From assembly GCF_947387555.1 (NCBI RefSeq), contig NZ_CANDNZ010000009.1, positions 62,001 through 126,000 of the forward strand: a stretch of 64,000 nucleotides of DNA, read 5' to 3'. Numbering within the stretch: the first letter of the stretch is position 1; the number at the start of each line of letters is the position of its first letter. A program made the translations under genes and the position numbers. Below are positions 1 to 7,064 of the stretch, piece by piece. Source of the stretch: Thalassomonas sp. RHCl1 (lineage in GTDB: Bacteria > Pseudomonadota > Gammaproteobacteria > Enterobacterales > Alteromonadaceae). The notes below the pieces were generated by a model, which saw only the letters and a list, made by a program, of their open reading frames with translations, was not told where the DNA came from and did no database searches.

Positions 1-1641
1 GTTGACGGTCAGGTAAGCATCTCTATTGATGAAACCACCACCCGTGAAGACATCAACACCTTATTCGATATTTTATTGGGTGAAGGCCACGGTTTAGATG
101 TTGCCGCATTAGACAGCGAGATTATCGCCAACGGCAGCCAGTCAATCCCGGCGTCATTAGTACGTGAGTCGGCGATACTGACCCATCCTGTGTTTAACAG
201 CTACCACTCGGAAACCGAGATGTTACGTTACATCAAAAAGCTGGAAAACAAGGATTTGGCCCTGAACCATTCGATGATTTCACTGGGCTCCTGTACCATG
301 AAATTAAATGCCACCGCGCAGATGATCCCGGTTTCCTGGCCTGAATTTGCCAATATGCACCCGTTTGCCCCGAAAGATCAGGCACAGGGCTATAAGCAGA
401 TGATCGACGAGCTGGGCGACTGGCTGGTAGAGCTAACCGGTTACGACAATATTTCCATGCAGCCTAACTCGGGCGCGCAAGGGGAATACGCCGGTTTGGT
501 AGCGATTGCCAAATATCACGAAAGCCGCGGCGAAGGACACAGAAACATCTGTTTGATCCCGTCGTCTGCCCACGGCACCAACCCGGCTTCAGCGCAAATG
601 GTTGGCATGAAAGTGGTTGTGGTAGACTGCGACAAGCAAGGTAACGTCGATATGGACGACCTGCGCGCCAAAGCGAGTGAAATGGCGGACAGCCTGTCTT
701 GTATCATGATCACTTACCCGTCTACCCACGGGGTATATGAAACCACGATTGCCGAAATTTGTGATGTGATTCACGAGCACGGCGGCCAGGTATACCTTGA
801 CGGCGCCAATATGAATGCCCAGGTAGGTTTAACCTCTCCGGGTTTTATCGGCGCAGATGTATCGCACCTTAACCTGCACAAAACCTTCGCTATTCCTCAC
901 GGTGGCGGCGGACCGGGTATGGGACCTATTGGTGTTAAGAAACACCTTGCCCCCTTCTTACCGGATCATGCCCTGGTTAATGTGGATGAAAGCACCCAAG
1001 GCAATGGCGCGGTTTCTGCGGCTCCTTACGGTAGTGCCGGTATTTTATGTATCTCTTACCTGTACATTGCTTTATTAGGCAAGCAAGGGGTAACAGACTC
1101 GACTAAGTATGCCATTACCAATGCTAACTATCTGGCCCACAAGTTAAGCCAGCATTACCCGATTTTATATACCGGGGCCAATGGGCGGGTGGCGCACGAA
1201 TGTATCGTAGACCTTCGTCCGATCAAAGAAGCTTCCGGCATTACCGAAATGGATGTTGCCAAGCGTTTGATGGATTACGGTTTTCATGCGCCGACTATGT
1301 CGTTCCCGGTTGCCGGTACCTTGATGATAGAGCCGACAGAGTCAGAAGCTAAACCTGAGCTGGACCGTTTTATTGAAGCCATGACCTGCATCCGCGATGA
1401 AATTCGCAAGGTAGAAGCCGGTGAGTGGACGCTGGAAGACAACCCGCTGCACAATGCGCCGCATACTTTAGCCGATATCACCGATACCTGGGAGCGTGGT
1501 TATTCCGTTGCCCAGGCGGTATTCCCGGTACCGGCTGCTGCGGCAAATAAGTTCTGGCCGACGGTTAACCGCATCGATGACGTGTTTGGTGACCGTAACC
1601 TGATTTGTTCTTGTCCTGCGGTTGAGACTTATAAAGATTAA
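1..1641 (+). CDS. gcvP: Glycine dehydrogenase (decarboxylating), P-protein, C-terminal part
   Basis: The frame is open from base 1, so the true start lies upstream and 546 C-terminal residues are visible. The P-protein decarboxylates glycine with PLP and passes the aminomethyl group to the lipoyl arm of the H-protein in the glycine cleavage system. The PLP-lysine motif [16 protein letters not shown] is present, as are the conserved [13 protein letters not shown] and [10 protein letters not shown] stretches. The protein ends normally (CPAVETYKD). A strong hairpin terminator follows, so gcvP is probably the last gene of its operon and the chromosomal border of the integron. Confidence 0.97.
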
Positions 1642-1660
1642 TGTAAATTGATTTTTGTTG

Positions 1661-1694
1661 AGAAAAGCGAGCTTTGGCTCGCTTTTCTGTTTTT
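1661..1694 (+). terminator. Rho-independent terminator of gcvP
   Basis: Perfect 12-bp stem (AGAAAAGCGAGC / GCTCGCTTTTCT) with a TTTG loop, followed by a T-rich run, 20 bases after the gcvP stop. It also faces the end of the convergent integrase gene. Confidence 0.9.
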
Positions 1695-1722
1695 GAAAGA
1701 TAAGTTATCTGTGCTGTTATAT

Positions 1723-2691
1723 TCACAAGTCACTCAATGGACTGCGTACACCATTGGCTCCGGCCTGGATCACATGGGTATAAATTTGCGTGGTACGGAT
1801 ATCGACATGCCCCAATTGTTCCTGTACGGTGCGGATATCACAGCCACGCTGCAATAAATGAGTAGCAAAACTGTGGCGAAGAGTGTGGCAGCTTACACTT
1901 TTATGAATACCGGCCCTCTTGGCTGCTCTTTTAACGGCTCTTTGCAATGATCTTTCGTCAATGTGATGACGCCTGGTTACGTTATTGGCATGAGGATCCC
2001 GACTCAACCGGGAAGAAGGAAATAGATAATGCCAGCCAAATTCCTTTGCTGCAGTGGGATATTTTTTTGCCAGAGCATGAGGTAACCACACTCCTTGATA
2101 GTCTTTATTTTTTATATCCAGCTCATAAAACTGTTTGCACACGGTGAGCTGCTGTTTTAGCGGTTCTACCAACTCCTTGGCTAAAGTGACCCTTCGGTTT
2201 TTATTGCTTTTACTTTGCCATACCAGAAGGCACAGATAGTCGAAATCAATATCTTGAATGCGCATTCTTAAGGTTTCCATTAACCTCAGACCGCTGCCGT
2301 ACATGAGTTTGGTCATCAGTGAATACTGGGCGGTTACAGCATTTAATAAGGCAGTTACTTCCTCCGGGATGAGTACCGTTGGCAGTTTTGCCTGGCGTGA
2401 TGATTTATTAAAATCAAGATTCAATGATAACGGTGCCTGGATAATTTCTTTATACAGAAACACCAGTGCGTTTAGGGCTATTGCCTGGGTACCAGGAGCA
2501 ACATTACTGTGTGATGACAGGTAAGTTAAAAAATATTCTACCTCTTGATTCCCTAACTCTGACGGGTGCTTTTTATTGTGAAAAAGGATATATTTTTTTA
2601 TCCAATAAATATATGTTTCAATGGTTCGTTTGGCATATCTACGCGTAATCATGAATTCGCTGATGTAGGTGAGAAATAGGGATTGTGGCAT
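1723..2691 (-). CDS. intI: Integron integrase (tyrosine recombinase)
   Basis: 322-residue IntI-type tyrosine recombinase that catalyses attI x attC and attC x attC recombination. Catalytic residues are all visible: Arg in [24 protein letters not shown] (His and Arg), His in [11 protein letters not shown], and Tyr in TTQIYTHV. The integron-specific extra helix region that sets IntI apart from XerC/D is present ([18 protein letters not shown]). The N-terminal SAM-like core-binding domain spans roughly residues 1-90. The gene is transcribed away from the cassette array, as in most integrons. Length and motifs suggest it is intact and active. A LexA box lies 22 bases upstream of the ATG, so SOS control is likely. 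The ribosome binding site is weak. Confidence 0.96.
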
Positions 2692-2713
2692 TTGAATTTA
2701 CTTAGTATTAGTG

Positions 2714-2729
2714 CTGTATGTTTATACAG
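2714..2729. promoter_or_regulatory. LexA (SOS) box of intI
   Basis: CTGTATGTTTATACAG matches the gammaproteobacterial LexA consensus CTGT-N8-ACAG and sits 22 bases upstream of the intI start. On the minus strand it overlaps a TATAAA that could be the -10 element. LexA repression of intI, relieved by ssDNA/RecA, is established for integron integrases. Confidence 0.85.
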
Positions 2730-2818
2730 TTTAGGTGCTATTTATAAAAATGCTTTGTTAGACGGAGAAAAGTCGTATTTCACTTATTTCTCTAATATTC
2801 GAAATAAGAGTGAAGAAA

Positions 2819-2847
2819 TTGAATTAATGGGGTAACCTGTTTATTTT
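2819..2847 (+). promoter_or_regulatory. Candidate cassette promoter (Pc)
   Basis: TTGAAT, a 17-base spacer, then TATTTT, pointing into the cassette array about 75 bases upstream of attI. This is the only reasonable sigma-70-like pair found here on the plus strand; the assignment is by position and motif only. Confidence 0.4.
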
Positions 2848-2868
2848 ACATTTTATTAAATTCAGTAA

Positions 2869-2910
2869 AGACGACAAAGTGTCGTGTTTAATTACGACAT
2901 TTTGTCGTCT
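2869..2910. repeat. Double palindrome / 17-bp hairpin next to attI
   Basis: Arms AGACGACAAAGTGTCGT (2869-2885) and ACGACATTTTGTCGTCT (2894-2910) pair over 17 bp with one mismatch and an 8-base loop. Each arm is itself a palindrome of the form ACGACA-N3-TGTCGT, with centres 23 bp apart. The element lies between the putative cassette promoter and the attI core. It could be a pair of operators, a 5' UTR hairpin, or part of attI. Confidence 0.8.
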
Positions 2911-2925
2911 GTTAAGCTGTTAGGT
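2911..2925 (+). other. attI recombination site (core)
   Basis: GTTAGGT at 2919-2925 is a perfect GTTRRRY core, placed just before the first cassette ORF. A second core-like GTTAAGC lies one base upstream (2911-2917). Insertion of cassettes would occur between G2919 and T2920. The site is assigned from the core and from its position between intI and the first cassette. Confidence 0.75.
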
Positions 2926-2938
2926 AACTCAATAAAGT

Positions 2939-3418
2939 ATGCAATCACCTTTAGACAAAGTTGGCTCTTTTTATGTTTTTTTAGAGGCAATTCATTATGA
3001 CGTAAATGAAGAGTCTTTATGGATTGAAGTTTCCTGTGCAAAACTAGCTGATGAAGTTTATCGTGCAAAACCTAAATCAGGTGATGAGACGGAAGATAGA
3101 ATCGAAAAAGTATTGGATGGGTGCCGGGAGATAATTACTGACGAAAACAGTCCTCGCTATAGGATCAGTTTTGAGCATGTTTTCTACCACCAAGTTTGTG
3201 AAGAGTTTGATTATGATATGTCAAAAGAAAAATGCGATGATAATGGAGTTGTTGGAATCATCGAAGATTCATCACTATTGGCACATTTAAAAAATGATAC
3301 TGAAGTATTTTGGCATTGTGAAAGATCCAAAATGTACGTAGTAGCAACATCAAGCAAATGGTTAAGAGTAGTAAGTTCAGAGCCTCCTGAAATAACGTTG
3401 GTGGAAAGCGTTACCTAA
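2939..3418 (+). CDS. Cassette 1: hypothetical protein (159 aa)
   Basis: Unrecognised soluble acidic protein of the first cassette, the one most exposed to transcription from the integron promoter. No signal peptide or membrane segment is seen. It has several cysteines (VSCAK, DGCRE, HQVCEEF, KEKCDD, WHCER). The ATG lies 20 bases after the attI core, the usual compact cassette layout, but the upstream ribosome binding site is weak. The stop codon lies inside the R'' box of attC1. Confidence 0.75.
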   Translation: MQSPLDKVGSFYVFLEAIHYDVNEESLWIEVSCAKLADEVYRAKPKSGDETEDRIEKVLDGCREIITDENSPRYRISFEHVFYHQVCEEFDYDMSKEKCDDNGVVGIIEDSSLLAHLKNDTEVFWHCERSKMYVVATSSKWLRVVSSEPPEITLVESVT

Positions 3419-3484
3419 CAAGCGCAATCACGCGGAGCAATTTTCCGCTGCGCTTCAAATTGCCCGGTGTTGCGGGCGTTAGTT
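3413..3484 (+). repeat. attC1
   Basis: R'' ACCTAAC and R' GTTAGTT flank a 72-base imperfect inverted repeat. Almost identical in its body to attC3 and related to attC14 and attC16 (family A). Confidence 0.93.
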
Positions 3485-3509
3485 TTCCTATCACATGGAG
3501 AGTGTTATT

Positions 3510-3791
3510 TTGGCTGAATATTTTGATAATAGAGAAGAAGAGTACCTTAACTGGGTAAATACACATCAAGATACTGGTTATGTTGTAAATGTAGATGATC
3601 CTCAAAAATTTAAAAACTACCCAATGGTTCATTTGGCGAAACATAAATTAATATGGGGCCCAAGTAGAACTAACTATACGACAGGTAGATATAAGAAATA
3701 TTGCTCTACGGATCTAAAAGAATTAGAGTCGTGGTCACTCACGATTCATAAAAAAGAGCTAACTTTCTGTAAGGCTTGTTTTAATAAATAA
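3510..3791 (+). CDS. Cassette 2: hypothetical protein (93 aa)
   Basis: Unrecognised small soluble protein rich in Tyr, Lys and Asp, with a C-terminal CKACF motif. A TTG at 3510 is preferred as the start because GGAGAG (3497-3502) lies 7 bases upstream; the in-frame ATG at 3495 overlaps that ribosome binding site and would give 98 residues. Single gene of its cassette, with the stop 10 bases before attC2. Confidence 0.7.
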   Translation: MAEYFDNREEEYLNWVNTHQDTGYVVNVDDPQKFKNYPMVHLAKHKLIWGPSRTNYTTGRYKKYCSTDLKELESWSLTIHKKELTFCKACFNK

Positions 3792-3801
3792 TGGAGTCAA
3801 A

Positions 3802-3857
3802 AACTAACAAATTAAGCCAGCGGATTCGTAAACTCACCGCTGCTTCAGGCGTTAACT
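3802..3857 (+). repeat. attC2
   Basis: Short 56-base attC (family B) with R'' AACTAAC and R' GTTAACT, body like attC5 and attC8 (AGCCAGCGGATTCG ... CCGCTGCTTC). R' departs from GTTRRRY at one position. Confidence 0.88.
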
Positions 3858-3862
3858 GTACT

Positions 3863-4231
3863 ATGAAAAATTCTACTTATATTCCAAATTACATCCCAAA
3901 GTCAGAGCGAATAATTAATTTTATCTGGGGCATTTGTTTAGTGATATATGCTATCTATGGTTACTTCATGGGGGAGTTATATATGCCTGGACGAAGAGGG
4001 ACTGAGGGAACCACATTCACTGGCGATAACTTGGTTATGATAATTGTAGCTATGTTTTTGGGGGCTCTGAATCTCTTTATTACTATTGTCGATCATTATG
4101 ATAAACGAGATAATGAAAAAAATTACAAGTTCATTAGTCGAATTATAATGTTTTTCTCGATATCATTGATTTTAGGTGCTTTTTATGAAGGTTTTTTCCC
4201 TAGTATAACTGTCACGGTTATTCAATCATAA
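3863..4231 (+). CDS. Cassette 3: small membrane protein (122 aa)
   Basis: Unrecognised inner-membrane protein with about three membrane segments (near residues 18-38, 55-75 and 90-110). The ATG at 3863 just after the attC2 core is preferred. An in-frame ATG at 3791 overlaps the stop of the previous gene but would translate the whole attC2 site, so that longer form is probably only read-through. Confidence 0.75.
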   Translation: MKNSTYIPNYIPKSERIINFIWGICLVIYAIYGYFMGELYMPGRRGTEGTTFTGDNLVMIIVAMFLGALNLFITIVDHYDKRDNEKNYKFISRIIMFFSISLILGAFYEGFFPSITVTVIQS

Positions 4232-4236
4232 AACAC

Positions 4237-4308
4237 AGTTAACAAGCGCAATCAAGCGGAGCAATTTTCCGCTGCGCTCCAAATTGCCCGGTGTTGCGGG
4301 CGTTAGTA
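4237..4308 (+). repeat. attC3
   Basis: 72-base family A attC, R'' AGTTAAC, R' GTTAGTA, body nearly identical to attC1. Confidence 0.92.
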
Positions 4309-4487
4309 GGCCACCACTAGTCAAGCTGAATTATTGTAAAAATAGCTGTGTAGAAAGCGGGCTGGTGGTTGGTACTTAGCTCAATATTCACGGTTTGGTG
4401 GGTAGTGGTGGTAGGTGCAAATAGCATCTTCCGTATATCCCCCAAACCATTATTTAAACAGTTAGTGTGGTGCAAATAACCAGCAAC
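4309..4487 (+). other. Cassette 4: ORF-less cassette
   Basis: No ORF of cassette type on either strand. Its sequence is related to the body of cassette 10: both share a GGCCACC(A/G)CTA start, a stretch around CTCAA-ATTCAC, TTGGTG-GTAG-GGTGGT, and TAGCATCTTCC or GGCATCTTCC. Where cassette 10 keeps a short open frame, this copy has two in-frame TAG codons, so the shared signal is unlikely to be protein. It could be a promoter, an RNA or an old remnant. Confidence 0.7.
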
Positions 4488-4568
4488 CACTAACAAGTAA
4501 AATCACCCGACAAAATACAGCTGGCCGTTCCGTCCAGCCGCATTTTTCAGGTGTTTTAAGCGTTATGT
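4488..4568 (+). repeat. attC4
   Basis: 81-base attC, R'' CACTAAC, R' GTTATGT, with a central stem around CAGCTGGCCG / CAGCCGC. Confidence 0.85.
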
Positions 4569-4600
4569 GTTTCTCTAGCTTTGGTGCTTGCAATTAGTAT

Positions 4601-4912
4601 ATGGATAGCATTGTCTTTATTTTAATTAGTGCAGTTGGGCTTTGCTTAGCAACTTTCCCATGCATGGGGCTTTTATATATTCCAAATTTATTCTTCAGCC
4701 CTAAATGGTATGTTCCTTTTATCTGGTTAGGAGGATTATCAATGCTATTAGCCATGCTTACAGCTATTGTAATCAATCTGGAACTAGAAGCCGGTGTGTT
4801 CTCTGTAGGCATATTTTTGATAGCTGTATCATGTGTATGGGCATTTATTATTCTACCTATTTTCTTTATATATAAATGGGTTACTATAAGGGGGAGGTGT
4901 TCAAACACATAA
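4601..4912 (+). CDS. Cassette 5: small membrane protein (103 aa)
   Basis: Unrecognised, very hydrophobic protein with three predicted membrane segments (about residues 3-28, 37-60 and 67-92) and a short basic tail (KWVTIRGRC). ATG at 4601; no clear ribosome binding site is seen. The stop codon overlaps R'' of attC5. Confidence 0.7.
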   Translation: MDSIVFILISAVGLCLATFPCMGLLYIPNLFFSPKWYVPFIWLGGLSMLLAMLTAIVINLELEAGVFSVGIFLIAVSCVWAFIILPIFFIYKWVTIRGRCSNT

Positions 4913-4963
4913 CAAATTAAACCAGCGGATTCGCTACGCTCTCCGCTGTTCAAAGCGTTATAA
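4907..4963 (+). repeat. attC5
   Basis: 57-base family B attC, R'' ACATAAC, R' GTTATAA. Confidence 0.9.
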
Positions 4964-5030
4964 AGAAAATGGAGTGTGCAGTTTCACTCCCTAATTGAAG
5001 TAACTTAACTTTCAAGATAGGAGAAATGAA

Positions 5031-6032
5031 ATGTCAAAACTATTATTTTCAACTGACACTGATTCGGGGACTATTACGGTTCTAGATCCGACGGCCTCAA
5101 TGAAAACCGTTTGTAAAATCGCTGTAGGAAACGGACCACGAGGGCCAGTCAAATTTACAACAACTGGAAGGGGGTTTGTGGCAAACCACGCTGGAAATAC
5201 CCTTTCAGAAATAGATGCGTATTCGCTTCGAGAATTATCAAGAATAAAAGTCGGAAATGCGCCTATTGGCGTGGCCATAGTTCCTGGTGATAGATATGCT
5301 CTTACTTCTTGCTCAGGCGACAATAATATCGCCGTTATCGATCTTGATAGCCGAGAAGTCGTTCATAGTTTAGTTACCGGTAGAGAACCCAGACATATGG
5401 ATATTACTCCATGTGGAAAATATGCATATGCCGCTGTATCAGGAGGAGACTATATTTCAAAAATAAATGTCGAGGCGCTAAGTCAAAATAATAAAAAAAA
5501 TATATCCGATACCGTCAGAGAGGAAAAGCGAATTTTTCTAGGTGAAGGTACAATGCCTTATAGTTTCGCAATAAATTCAACTGGCGAATATGGTTTGGCT
5601 GCAAACAATCAGACGGAGTATGTGTCCATCGTCGATCTTAAGAACGACAAGGTTTTTAAAGAAGTTAAAGTAGGAAACAAAGGAGCTAGGGGAAGCGTTT
5701 TTTCTCCAGATGGAGACAAAGTATTTGTAACGATTGAGGATATAAACGAAATTCTCGCTATAGATGTTTCAACTGGAAATATAGATAATAGGTTCCCAGT
5801 GGGGCCAGGGCCTAGAGGGATTATTCTGGATGAGCAAACAAATACATTGTTTGCTTCGGCTTTCGCTAGGAATAAAGCCGTTTCTACATCGGCAATAACG
5901 AAGCCTAACAGTGTTTCAATAGTTGAGTTAGGTTCTGTGACTACCCTCAAGGCACTAAGTAGCGCAACACCAAGCTTTAAGGAAGTTAGTGTTGGTGCTG
6001 GGCCATGTAGCGTTAATATTTTCACGAGATAA
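5031..6032 (+). CDS. Cassette 6, gene 1: YVTN-type beta-propeller protein
   Basis: 333 residues with repeated beta-propeller blades of the YVTN/surface-layer type, about 40 residues each (for example TITVLDPTA, IAVIDLDSREVVHSL, VSIVDLKNDKVFKEV, ILAIDVSTGNIDNRF, each followed by a G-N/P-R-G or G-P-turn). No signal peptide is visible, which is unusual because most YVTN proteins are exported. AGGAGAAATGAA precedes the ATG, a good ribosome binding site. It shares one cassette with the next gene, 18 bases downstream, so the two are probably co-translated partners. Binding partner unknown. Confidence 0.85.
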   Translation: MSKLLFSTDTDSGTITVLDPTASMKTVCKIAVGNGPRGPVKFTTTGRGFVANHAGNTLSEIDAYSLRELSRIKVGNAPIGVAIVPGDRYALTSCSGDNNIAVIDLDSREVVHSLVTGREPRHMDITPCGKYAYAAVSGGDYISKINVEALSQNNKKNISDTVREEKRIFLGEGTMPYSFAINSTGEYGLAANNQTEYVSIVDLKNDKVFKEVKVGNKGARGSVFSPDGDKVFVTIEDINEILAIDVSTGNIDNRFPVGPGPRGIILDEQTNTLFASAFARNKAVSTSAITKPNSVSIVELGSVTTLKALSSATPSFKEVSVGAGPCSVNIFTR

Positions 6033-6050
6033 AAAGGGAGGTGCCAGAAG

Positions 6051-6692
6051 GTGATGCCTTCTGGCCAAATTCCAATGAAATTTGAACAACTTTATGATTG
6101 GTCGCTGGTTCCAGAAAAACATAAGTTTGATTCGAACAATGAACTCTTAACCAAAAAGGTATACGAAGAGAATTTTAGATGGTTAAGAAATGACAGAACC
6201 CCAGCTCTTTGCCCATCTTATAGAAAGGCTTTTGAGTTAGGCTGGATAGTGAGAAGTCCTGTGGACATAGTATTGTGTCCTATACAAGAAATTCAACTTG
6301 CGAATAGTGAAGACAAAGCCGAAATCATGTCTCTATGTAATTTTGATTCAATTTGGACTAGAGATTCGAATGCGTTTGGCATTCGAACAGACATGAACTT
6401 TGCAGCTTACGAATTTAATGATGCAGGAAAATGGGAGTCTATGTTTATTGTAAACGGACACTCTTCGCTTGAATGGAGGCTCGGTTTTAAATGTGTACCA
6501 GATAAAGAGGAATCTATTTTAGTAATTGAGGAATTTGGAACACAGCCAATTGGCATAATACCAGGGCTTTTAAGTATGAAACATGTAACCTCAAAAACCG
6601 GTATGTCTGTTGCGATCAAGCCTCTAGAGCAACGTAAAATATCTAGAGGGGATATCATTGCTCGGCTAATTCCTGTGGCAAATGCTTTATAA
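6051..6692 (+). CDS. Cassette 6, gene 2: unknown soluble protein (213 aa)
   Basis: Second gene of the two-gene cassette. GTG at 6051 follows GGGAGG (6036-6041) by 9 bases; ATG at 6054 is an alternative. No signal peptide or membrane helix. The pattern RWLRNDRTP, then YRKAFELGWIVRSPVDI, then a C-terminal GDIIARLIPV, is reminiscent of the DUF6065 family, but this is an impression, not an alignment. The stop falls just inside attC6. The pairing with a beta-propeller suggests a joint function. Confidence 0.75.
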   Translation: MMPSGQIPMKFEQLYDWSLVPEKHKFDSNNELLTKKVYEENFRWLRNDRTPALCPSYRKAFELGWIVRSPVDIVLCPIQEIQLANSEDKAEIMSLCNFDSIWTRDSNAFGIRTDMNFAAYEFNDAGKWESMFIVNGHSSLEWRLGFKCVPDKEESILVIEEFGTQPIGIIPGLLSMKHVTSKTGMSVAIKPLEQRKISRGDIIARLIPVANAL

Positions 6693-6767
6693 CAAGGCCA
6701 TCAAAAATCGCGCACTTCGTGCGCTGGACTCGCAACAAGTTGCTTGCCTTTTATGGCGGCGTTATAA
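6687..6767 (+). repeat. attC6
   Basis: 81-base attC of family C (with attC7): CGCGCACTTCGTGCGCTGGACTC body, R'' TTATAAC, R' GTTATAA. Confidence 0.9.
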
Positions 6768-6785
6768 GCCTTCGGTGAGGATATC

Positions 6786-7064
6786 GTGGAGTTAAACAAA
6801 ACTTACGAAAATGTGGTTGTAGATGAGTTCAACGTTAAGCGTGAGAATGATACTTTTACAGTGACATTCGAATTTATTTCTGAGAAAAATCCTACCAAAG
6901 TTACATTAAAAGGAATCCGAGTAGCTGATAACTTATGTGAATTGTTGGAAGCTGAAAGGCTATGGATTGAAGAATGCGATAATGGGCAACTTGAATTTGG
7001 CCGTTTTACGCTAGGTATTTCGCATGAATCGTATACAGAAGTTACGTTTGATGAATTGGGGTAA
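6786..7064 (+). CDS. Cassette 7: hypothetical protein (92 aa)
   Basis: Unrecognised small acidic protein with mostly beta-type pattern in its first half. GTG start at 6786 with GTGAGG five bases upstream. No signal or membrane segment. Sole gene of its cassette. Confidence 0.7.
   Translation: MELNKTYENVVVDEFNVKRENDTFTVTFEFISEKNPTKVTLKGIRVADNLCELLEAERLWIEECDNGQLEFGRFTLGISHESYTEVTFDELG

Follow-up and report, generated by a model that had tools for sequence, protein, structure and literature searches.

What are the twin palindromes that stand beside the attI site of a chromosomal integron in Thalassomonas sp. RHCl1? They lie in a 64,000-nucleotide stretch of contig NZ_CANDNZ010000009.1 (hereafter the window, meaning that whole stretch), and an earlier note, made from the letters alone, had left three options for them: an operator pair controlling the cassette array, an element of the 5' untranslated region (5' UTR), or an unusual attI. 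Comparing the site with the corresponding sites of related integrons, we found that its layout is kept while its letters change, and that the letters follow residues of the integron integrase, IntI. On these sequence comparisons, the twin palindromes quite probably belong to a double-stranded attI in which binding sites for this integron's integrase are repeated.

Results

The two ACGACA-N3-TGTCGT palindromes occupy positions 2871–2885 and 2894–2908, with centres 23 bp apart, as the earlier note had said. Its 17-bp stem with one mismatch was likewise recovered: the hairpin arms (2869–2885 and 2894–2910, 17 nt each) are complementary at 16 of 17 positions around an 8-nt loop, the exception being a G.T pair. 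The palindromes thus comprise four copies of the hexamer ACGACA, which we refer to as P1L (2871–2876, + strand), P1R (2880–2885, − strand, closing the left palindrome), P2L (2894–2899, + strand) and P2R (2903–2908, − strand), with the 8-bp spacer GTTTAATT (2886–2893) forming the hairpin loop. The exact 15-bp motif occurs in two places in the assembly (7,557,691 bases in 39 contigs), both at attI, and a reversed control pattern had no match in the same assembly. As simple arithmetic with even base composition predicts ~0.45 chance matches genome-wide, two copies within 38 bp are not chance. No exact copy was found upstream of other genes in the 7.56-Mb genome, inexact copies not having been searched for genome-wide. 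The earlier note had reasoned that recurrence upstream of other genes would mark an operator and confinement to attI a part of attI; by that reasoning the latter option is favoured, since within this genome the element stands only at attI, and its layout recurs at attI in relatives.

To describe the relatives, IntI searches covered 59 relatives, 395 family genomes, 369 class genomes and 394 order genomes (the sets overlap), and loci were taken from the best-scoring IntI matches listed. A recognisable attI core was present in 133 of the 156 loci read, and discarding loci whose elements were 75% or more identical left 83; the statistics over 76 non-redundant loci leave out a further two with an uncertain core (L120, L090) and five with less than 50% IntI identity (L025, L028, L029, L030, L032). 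A core profile over 96 loci, the window included, placed the attI core CTGTTAAGCTG at 2909–2919 (+ strand). This profile ends CTG|TTA, and we place the crossover at G2919|T2920 on the assumption that the integron rule G|TT applies.

At the corresponding attI positions of the 76 loci, the sequences differ widely, and they carry repeats particular to each lineage, with two copies in direct orientation at a distance of 23 bp and one inverted copy joined to the L box. A lack of conservation in close relatives was what the earlier note had named as counting against its observation; the letters are indeed not conserved, whereas the architecture is. An offset of 23 was the strongest of all direct-repeat offsets. 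Among complementary registers, that of the long hairpin was the strongest of all antidiagonals (sum excess 2.28, with a standard deviation of 0.35 over registers), followed by P2's own dyad (0.93). The half-sites themselves co-varied, with z 11.9 for P1L and L, 9.1 for P1L and P2L and 7.3 for P2L and L. Compensatory pairing in the long-hairpin register (z 12.1 for Watson-Crick pairs) is largely explained by these repeated half-sites, and the long hairpin would seem to be mostly a by-product of direct and inverted copies of one hexamer. In contrast to the other copies, P1R had a single clear co-variation, with P2L, which it faces in the hairpin (z 6.1; z 2.1 with P1L and 1.2 with L), and in relatives it is not supported as an IntI-read site. 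The left palindrome was also considered as a conserved dyad in its own right, a candidate that its weak signal in relatives (z 2.4) ruled out.

The integrase of the window (intI, 1723–2691, − strand, 322 aa) matches TIGR02249 integrase_gron at 456.8 bits (cut-off 265), and its best PDB match is 2a3v, IntI4 (E 1.2e-126), to which it aligns clearly. Over 126 loci (effective number 74), the mutual information between IntI columns and the half-site peaked at residues 244–251, the top eight-residue window. In the window these residues read IDERSLQR (codons at 1939–1962, − strand), and we propose them as the DNA-reading helix; from their motif pattern, we take them to be the probable equivalent of Cre helix J. 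Residues 243–254 exceeded the rest of the protein (p 0.0009), as they did in a pairs test (p 0.004), with p 0.20 for control DNA columns.

Tables of residues against bases resolved this signal into two pairings. Residue 247 (codon 1951–1953, − strand, R in the window) pairs with half-site base 4 (S/T with G, Q with T, K with C, R with A), and residue 250 (codon 1942–1944, − strand, Q in the window) pairs with base 2 (Q with C, R with any base except C). In the L arm, for instance, C at base 2 accompanied Q250 in 20 of 33 cases and R250 in 2 of 42. Over 140 loci, agreement with the code was 0.86 versus 0.51, and none of 2000 permutations of half-sites between 42 IntI clusters reached the observed value. 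The rule was followed most strongly by L, then P2L, then P1L; P2R, the outer part of the L binding arm, is supported by the same co-variation and residue code. Within the window's genus the swap can be seen directly, the window pairing R247 with ACGACA and the two nearest relatives pairing T247 with ACGGAA and S247 with TCGGCA/ACGGGA. These comparisons indicate that the half-site hexamer is specific to each integron lineage, with IntI residues 247 and 250 tracking bases 4 and 2.

The rule, written down beforehand, was then applied to 103 new loci (80 named and 23 from the order-level search). Setting aside 37 with at least 95% IntI identity to earlier loci and 1 short locus left 65, of which 27 lacked a site and 38 carried one (33 after thinning). 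Among those with a covered residue, agreement was 32 of 37 overall and 8 of 10 outside S/T, or 27 of 32 and 7 of 9 when thinned at 90% IntI identity. Site finding was not fixed in advance (core profile first, repeat detector second), and many new loci are related to earlier ones, making this a partial out-of-sample test. With all called sites taken together, residue 247 agreed with base 4 in 167 of 185, and 10 of 14 residue changes shared their tree branch with a base change, compared with a null mean of 2.1 (0 of 5000 reached the observed count). Both figures keep every called site and use no by-eye frames; adding two such frames gave 169/186 and 9/13. In a restricted run, 9 of 11 residue changes shared their branch; it left out L214, L225, L235, L302, L312 and L313, five of which contradict the code and the sixth of which carries a residue that the code does not cover.

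A third copy of the element pointed the same way. P0, an imperfect palindrome at 2762–2776 (ACGGAG-AAA-AGTCGT), matches the window's own P2 at 12 of 16 positions, and we propose it as a pair of IntI-binding sites. Across 71 loci, the region that separates the hairpin from intI matched its own P2 better than the P2 of other loci (10.8 vs 9.5 of 16, p 3e-12). P0 stands beside the intI promoter, where a LexA-like box, CTGTATGTTTATACAG, lies at 2714–2729; such a box, with at most one mismatch, was present in the corresponding region of 64 of the 76 non-redundant loci, and in 64 loci the P0 palindrome kept a near-fixed distance from it (best registers s=108, then 110). P0 was clearly palindromic in 49 of 143 loci, not thinned for redundancy, and at these the code was visible again: base 4 was G in 88 of 94 half-sites with S/T247, and base 2 was C in 28 of 36 with Q250 and something other than C in 59 of 62 with R250. 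Since P0 lies outside the hairpin, something must read the sequence that it shares, and a protein is the simplest candidate.

These observations bear on whether attI is instead recognised by its structure, with one DNA strand or a cruciform folding into the long hairpin for recombination, as the bottom strands of attC sites do. This option was tempting, as relatives keep the hairpin with other letters: its register is the strongest, the pairing of P1R with P2L does not follow the IntI code, and co-variation of the outer and inner arms persists at the 35 loci with a weak P2 dyad (z 4.3 and 2.6). Yet P0 has the same sequence outside the hairpin, the half-site follows a protein residue, and mispairs do not clearly single out a strand, G.T and A.C being depleted alike (0.87 and 0.85 of expected). 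Moreover, excerpts of PMC8946536 describe attI as recognised in double-stranded form. A pure hairpin attI, weakened by P0 and the residue code, was kept as a rival owing to P1R, and we consider a structure-dependent attI unlikely.

The same hairpin could act in RNA, as a 5' leader that stabilises cassette mRNA or tunes its translation. The predicted cassette promoter, Pc (TTGAAT-17-TATTTT, 2819–2847, + strand, with the -35 at 2819–2824 and the -10 at 2842–2847), came from a sigma-70-like sequence scan; a consensus promoter scan with a stricter threshold did not list a Pc at 2819–2847. In 45 of 74 loci, the -10 of the best Pc prediction ends 61 to 70 bases before the anchor. The element therefore does lie, as the earlier note had placed it, between the likely cassette promoter, whose -10 ends at 2847, and the insertion point, and a transcript from Pc would likely start ~15 nt upstream of the hairpin. 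The RNA fold of 2860–2940 is stable (-30.6 kcal/mol vs a shuffle mean of -12.0, z -7.1, with 0 of 200 shuffles equally stable), and the top strand folds more strongly than the bottom strand in 52 of 76 loci. The mean top-bottom difference was -2.84 kcal/mol, as opposed to -1.30 (standard deviation 0.16) in chimeras of different loci's arms; this excess may reflect only stronger folds, as the top/bottom ratio was similar (1.24 vs 1.19). The similar ratio and the equal depletion of G.T and A.C leave no clear sign of selection on RNA or on one DNA strand. In addition, no Rfam family matched at E up to 1 in window positions 1600–7000, and P0 lies upstream of the predicted Pc. The 5' UTR option of the earlier note thus found no clear support: the element would be transcribed, but G.T was not favoured over A.C once composition was allowed for. 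We regard a leader RNA as distinctly improbable.

In 6 other genomes, 8 pairs of integrons within one genome had an element identity of only 0.16–0.48 over 25 positions, and no same-genome pair was clearly above the background for its IntI identity. These pairs come from the multi-integron genomes among those examined, a partial set, from which G372 was left out since its L092 has no site. When each integron was instead compared with that of the nearest IntI in another genome, element identity was 0.60–0.96 in 11 of 13 cases, the exceptions being L135 (0.24, its neighbour being the uncertain L120) and L089 (0.44). These comparisons indicate that the reader of the element is integron-specific. 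A host transcription factor unrelated to IntI would account for palindromes two helix turns apart and for a third at the intI promoter, but not for a half-site that tracks IntI residues; the exact motif being found only at attI and the differing elements within one cell ruled such an operator out as a candidate, and we give it very little probability. Of the operator pair proposed in the earlier note, reading by a DNA-binding protein is supported, the likeliest reader being the integrase of the integron itself and not a separate regulator.

The layout also extends beyond the family, for example to L163, L172, L178 and L181. A strict repeat detector called 15 of 89 outside-family loci at a threshold reached by 2 of 231 shuffles; it called 27 of 142 family loci as well, and is therefore insensitive. 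Three of the 15 (L214, L225, L235) look like chance hits. Outside the family, the half-site detector excluded two-letter hexamers, and the hexamers of L171 and L169 were set by eye. In 18 hand-chosen named loci, mostly Vibrionaceae, a strong crossover hairpin was seen in four: V. fluminensis (12.8), Grimontia hollisae (14.2), Shewanella fodinae (13.0) and Rheinheimera nanhaiensis (13.7). In the remaining 14, scores of 4.5 to 8.4 were close to those of their own shuffles.

Several findings weigh against an attI made of IntI-read repeats. A recognisable site was absent in 27 of 65 new loci tested, 10 of them Vibrio. In the pairs test, the best single residue was 96, outside the proposed helix, a residue that also scored high for control columns, and hhalign of IntI against Cre gave a probability of 4% and left the helix unaligned. 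Part of the data on which the rule was assessed had also served to form it; among residues other than S/T the rule held in 19 of 28, R247 was a misfit in 2 of 4 (L186, L223), and L164 is the one further locus that backs the window's R-A pairing. P1R shows no significant agreement with the code (p 0.48 and 0.10). At P0, the window's copy is palindromic at 3 of 6 positions and one of its half-sites keeps the G form. A single locus supplies the Q-T agreements there (L007, 2/2) and another the K-C agreements (L282, 2/2), and in several K247 loci no more than one half of P0 fits.

Some loci showed features of their own. Shewanella fodinae (L298) breaks the rule: its half-site is that of the window, ACGACA, but its residue 247 is K. 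In L186, L192, L223 and L240, attI lies only ~120 bp from intI, and the R247 members of this group, L186 and L223, are those that misfit. The spacer between the palindromes is GTTTAA-like in the distant L163, L166, L179 and L181 despite their differing arms. L159 and L160 have a different short hairpin (TTTTGTGGGA...TCCC.AAAACA type), which in L159 stands directly before the CTG|TTAG crossover.

As for the surroundings in the window, intI is divergent from the cassette array, and the element lies 5' of the crossover, between the predicted Pc and the first cassette, whose open reading frame spans 2939–3418. On the other side, the 3' end of gcvP (glycine dehydrogenase, 76–1641) adjoins intI. The same genome holds a second, broken intI-like gene (G000 contig C4, 85615–86248) in three matching pieces, the first of which is 72% identical with two in-frame TAA codons. 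Elsewhere, genome G954 has three intI matches with identical scores, two of them on one contig.

Discussion

The nearest known counterpart is attI1 of class 1 integrons, which consists of DR1, DR2, L and R, its repeats serving as extra integrase-binding sites according to excerpts of PMC8946536, PMC8191803 and PMC4792948. As in attI1, so far as those excerpts describe it, two direct repeats stand here ahead of an L/R core whose R box holds the crossover. The repeats have R's orientation (judged by eye) and are recognised by the leading offset and by co-variation, and the L arm is their inverted partner at the crossover core. By sequence, P1L and P2L appear to correspond to DR1 and DR2, and P2R to the outer half of the L arm beside the crossover. 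Apparently unlike attI1, the window's site has a lineage-specific hexamer, a 23-bp spacing, a dyad of P2L with L, and an extra pair at the intI promoter. The attI1 repeats presumably have no obvious fit to the residue rule.

With the attIA site of Vibrio cholerae, in the parts of PMC8876359 that describe it, the window shares a chromosomal setting, a LexA box at the intI promoter and a Pc upstream of the crossover. It differs in having direct repeats, which attIA is reported to lack in excerpts of PMC8191803 and PMC8946536. Our ten Vibrio loci without a called site agree with those excerpts; V. mimicus (L263) had no called site and a weak hairpin of 8.4 (shuffles up to 7.4). According to excerpts of PMC8191803, moreover, most attI sites lack direct repeats, and selection for such repeats may have come with mobilisation. 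To attC the element is similar in being a long imperfect dyad beside a recombination core; it differs from the folded bottom strand of attC, as outlined in excerpts of PMC8946536, in its sequence-specific repeats, its distant third copy and its lack of a clear strand bias.

Cre, also a tyrosine recombinase, owes its specificity for loxP to helix J, R259 and E262 (PMC7438526, in excerpt), and the helix positions that we propose as equivalent track site bases in a similar manner. What distinguishes the present case is natural co-variation over many lineages, in an integrase, with a structural equivalence that the alignment did not support. Collis and colleagues reportedly found in 2002 that integrases prefer their own attI. 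In the portions of the open-licence PubMed Central literature on integrons and Cre that were available, we found neither a residue-level basis for this preference nor a description of the present pattern of repeats and residues.

From these comparisons, a model can be put forward in which IntI monomers would dock on P1L, P2L, L and R, and the docked IntI would position the cassette for insertion, the repeats probably helping to build the insertion complex. P0 would offer an additional IntI pair beside the LexA-controlled intI promoter, and IntI bound at P0 and P1/P2 could shut off or modulate both the intI promoter and the cassette promoter. Through the hexamer each IntI would recognise its own attI, such that the twin palindromes probably mark out for each integrase the integron to which it belongs. 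The pairing of P1R with P2L falls outside the code, as does the GTTTAA-like spacer of distant loci; these may be a structural feature, a pseudo-core, or the outcome of quasi-palindrome correction. As an account of the whole element, such correction, in which template switching matches the arms without selection, would explain the P1R-P2L match; it leaves the distant match of P0, the fixed spacing to the crossover and the agreement with IntI residues unexplained, and we think it rather unlikely.

Beyond this locus, we lean towards the view that IntI-specific direct repeats are common in the chromosomal attI sites of Gammaproteobacteria and have been overlooked since their letters change, and that they would follow a near one-residue-to-one-base rule, provide each integron with a private address and let IntI regulate itself. 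If this is true, such repeats would be widespread in the sedentary integrons of this group, hidden by their co-divergence with IntI, and integrase/attI specificity would be predictable from sequence and testable by single substitutions. It would also account for the separation of several integrons within one cell, and would add autoregulation by IntI to the SOS control of intI.
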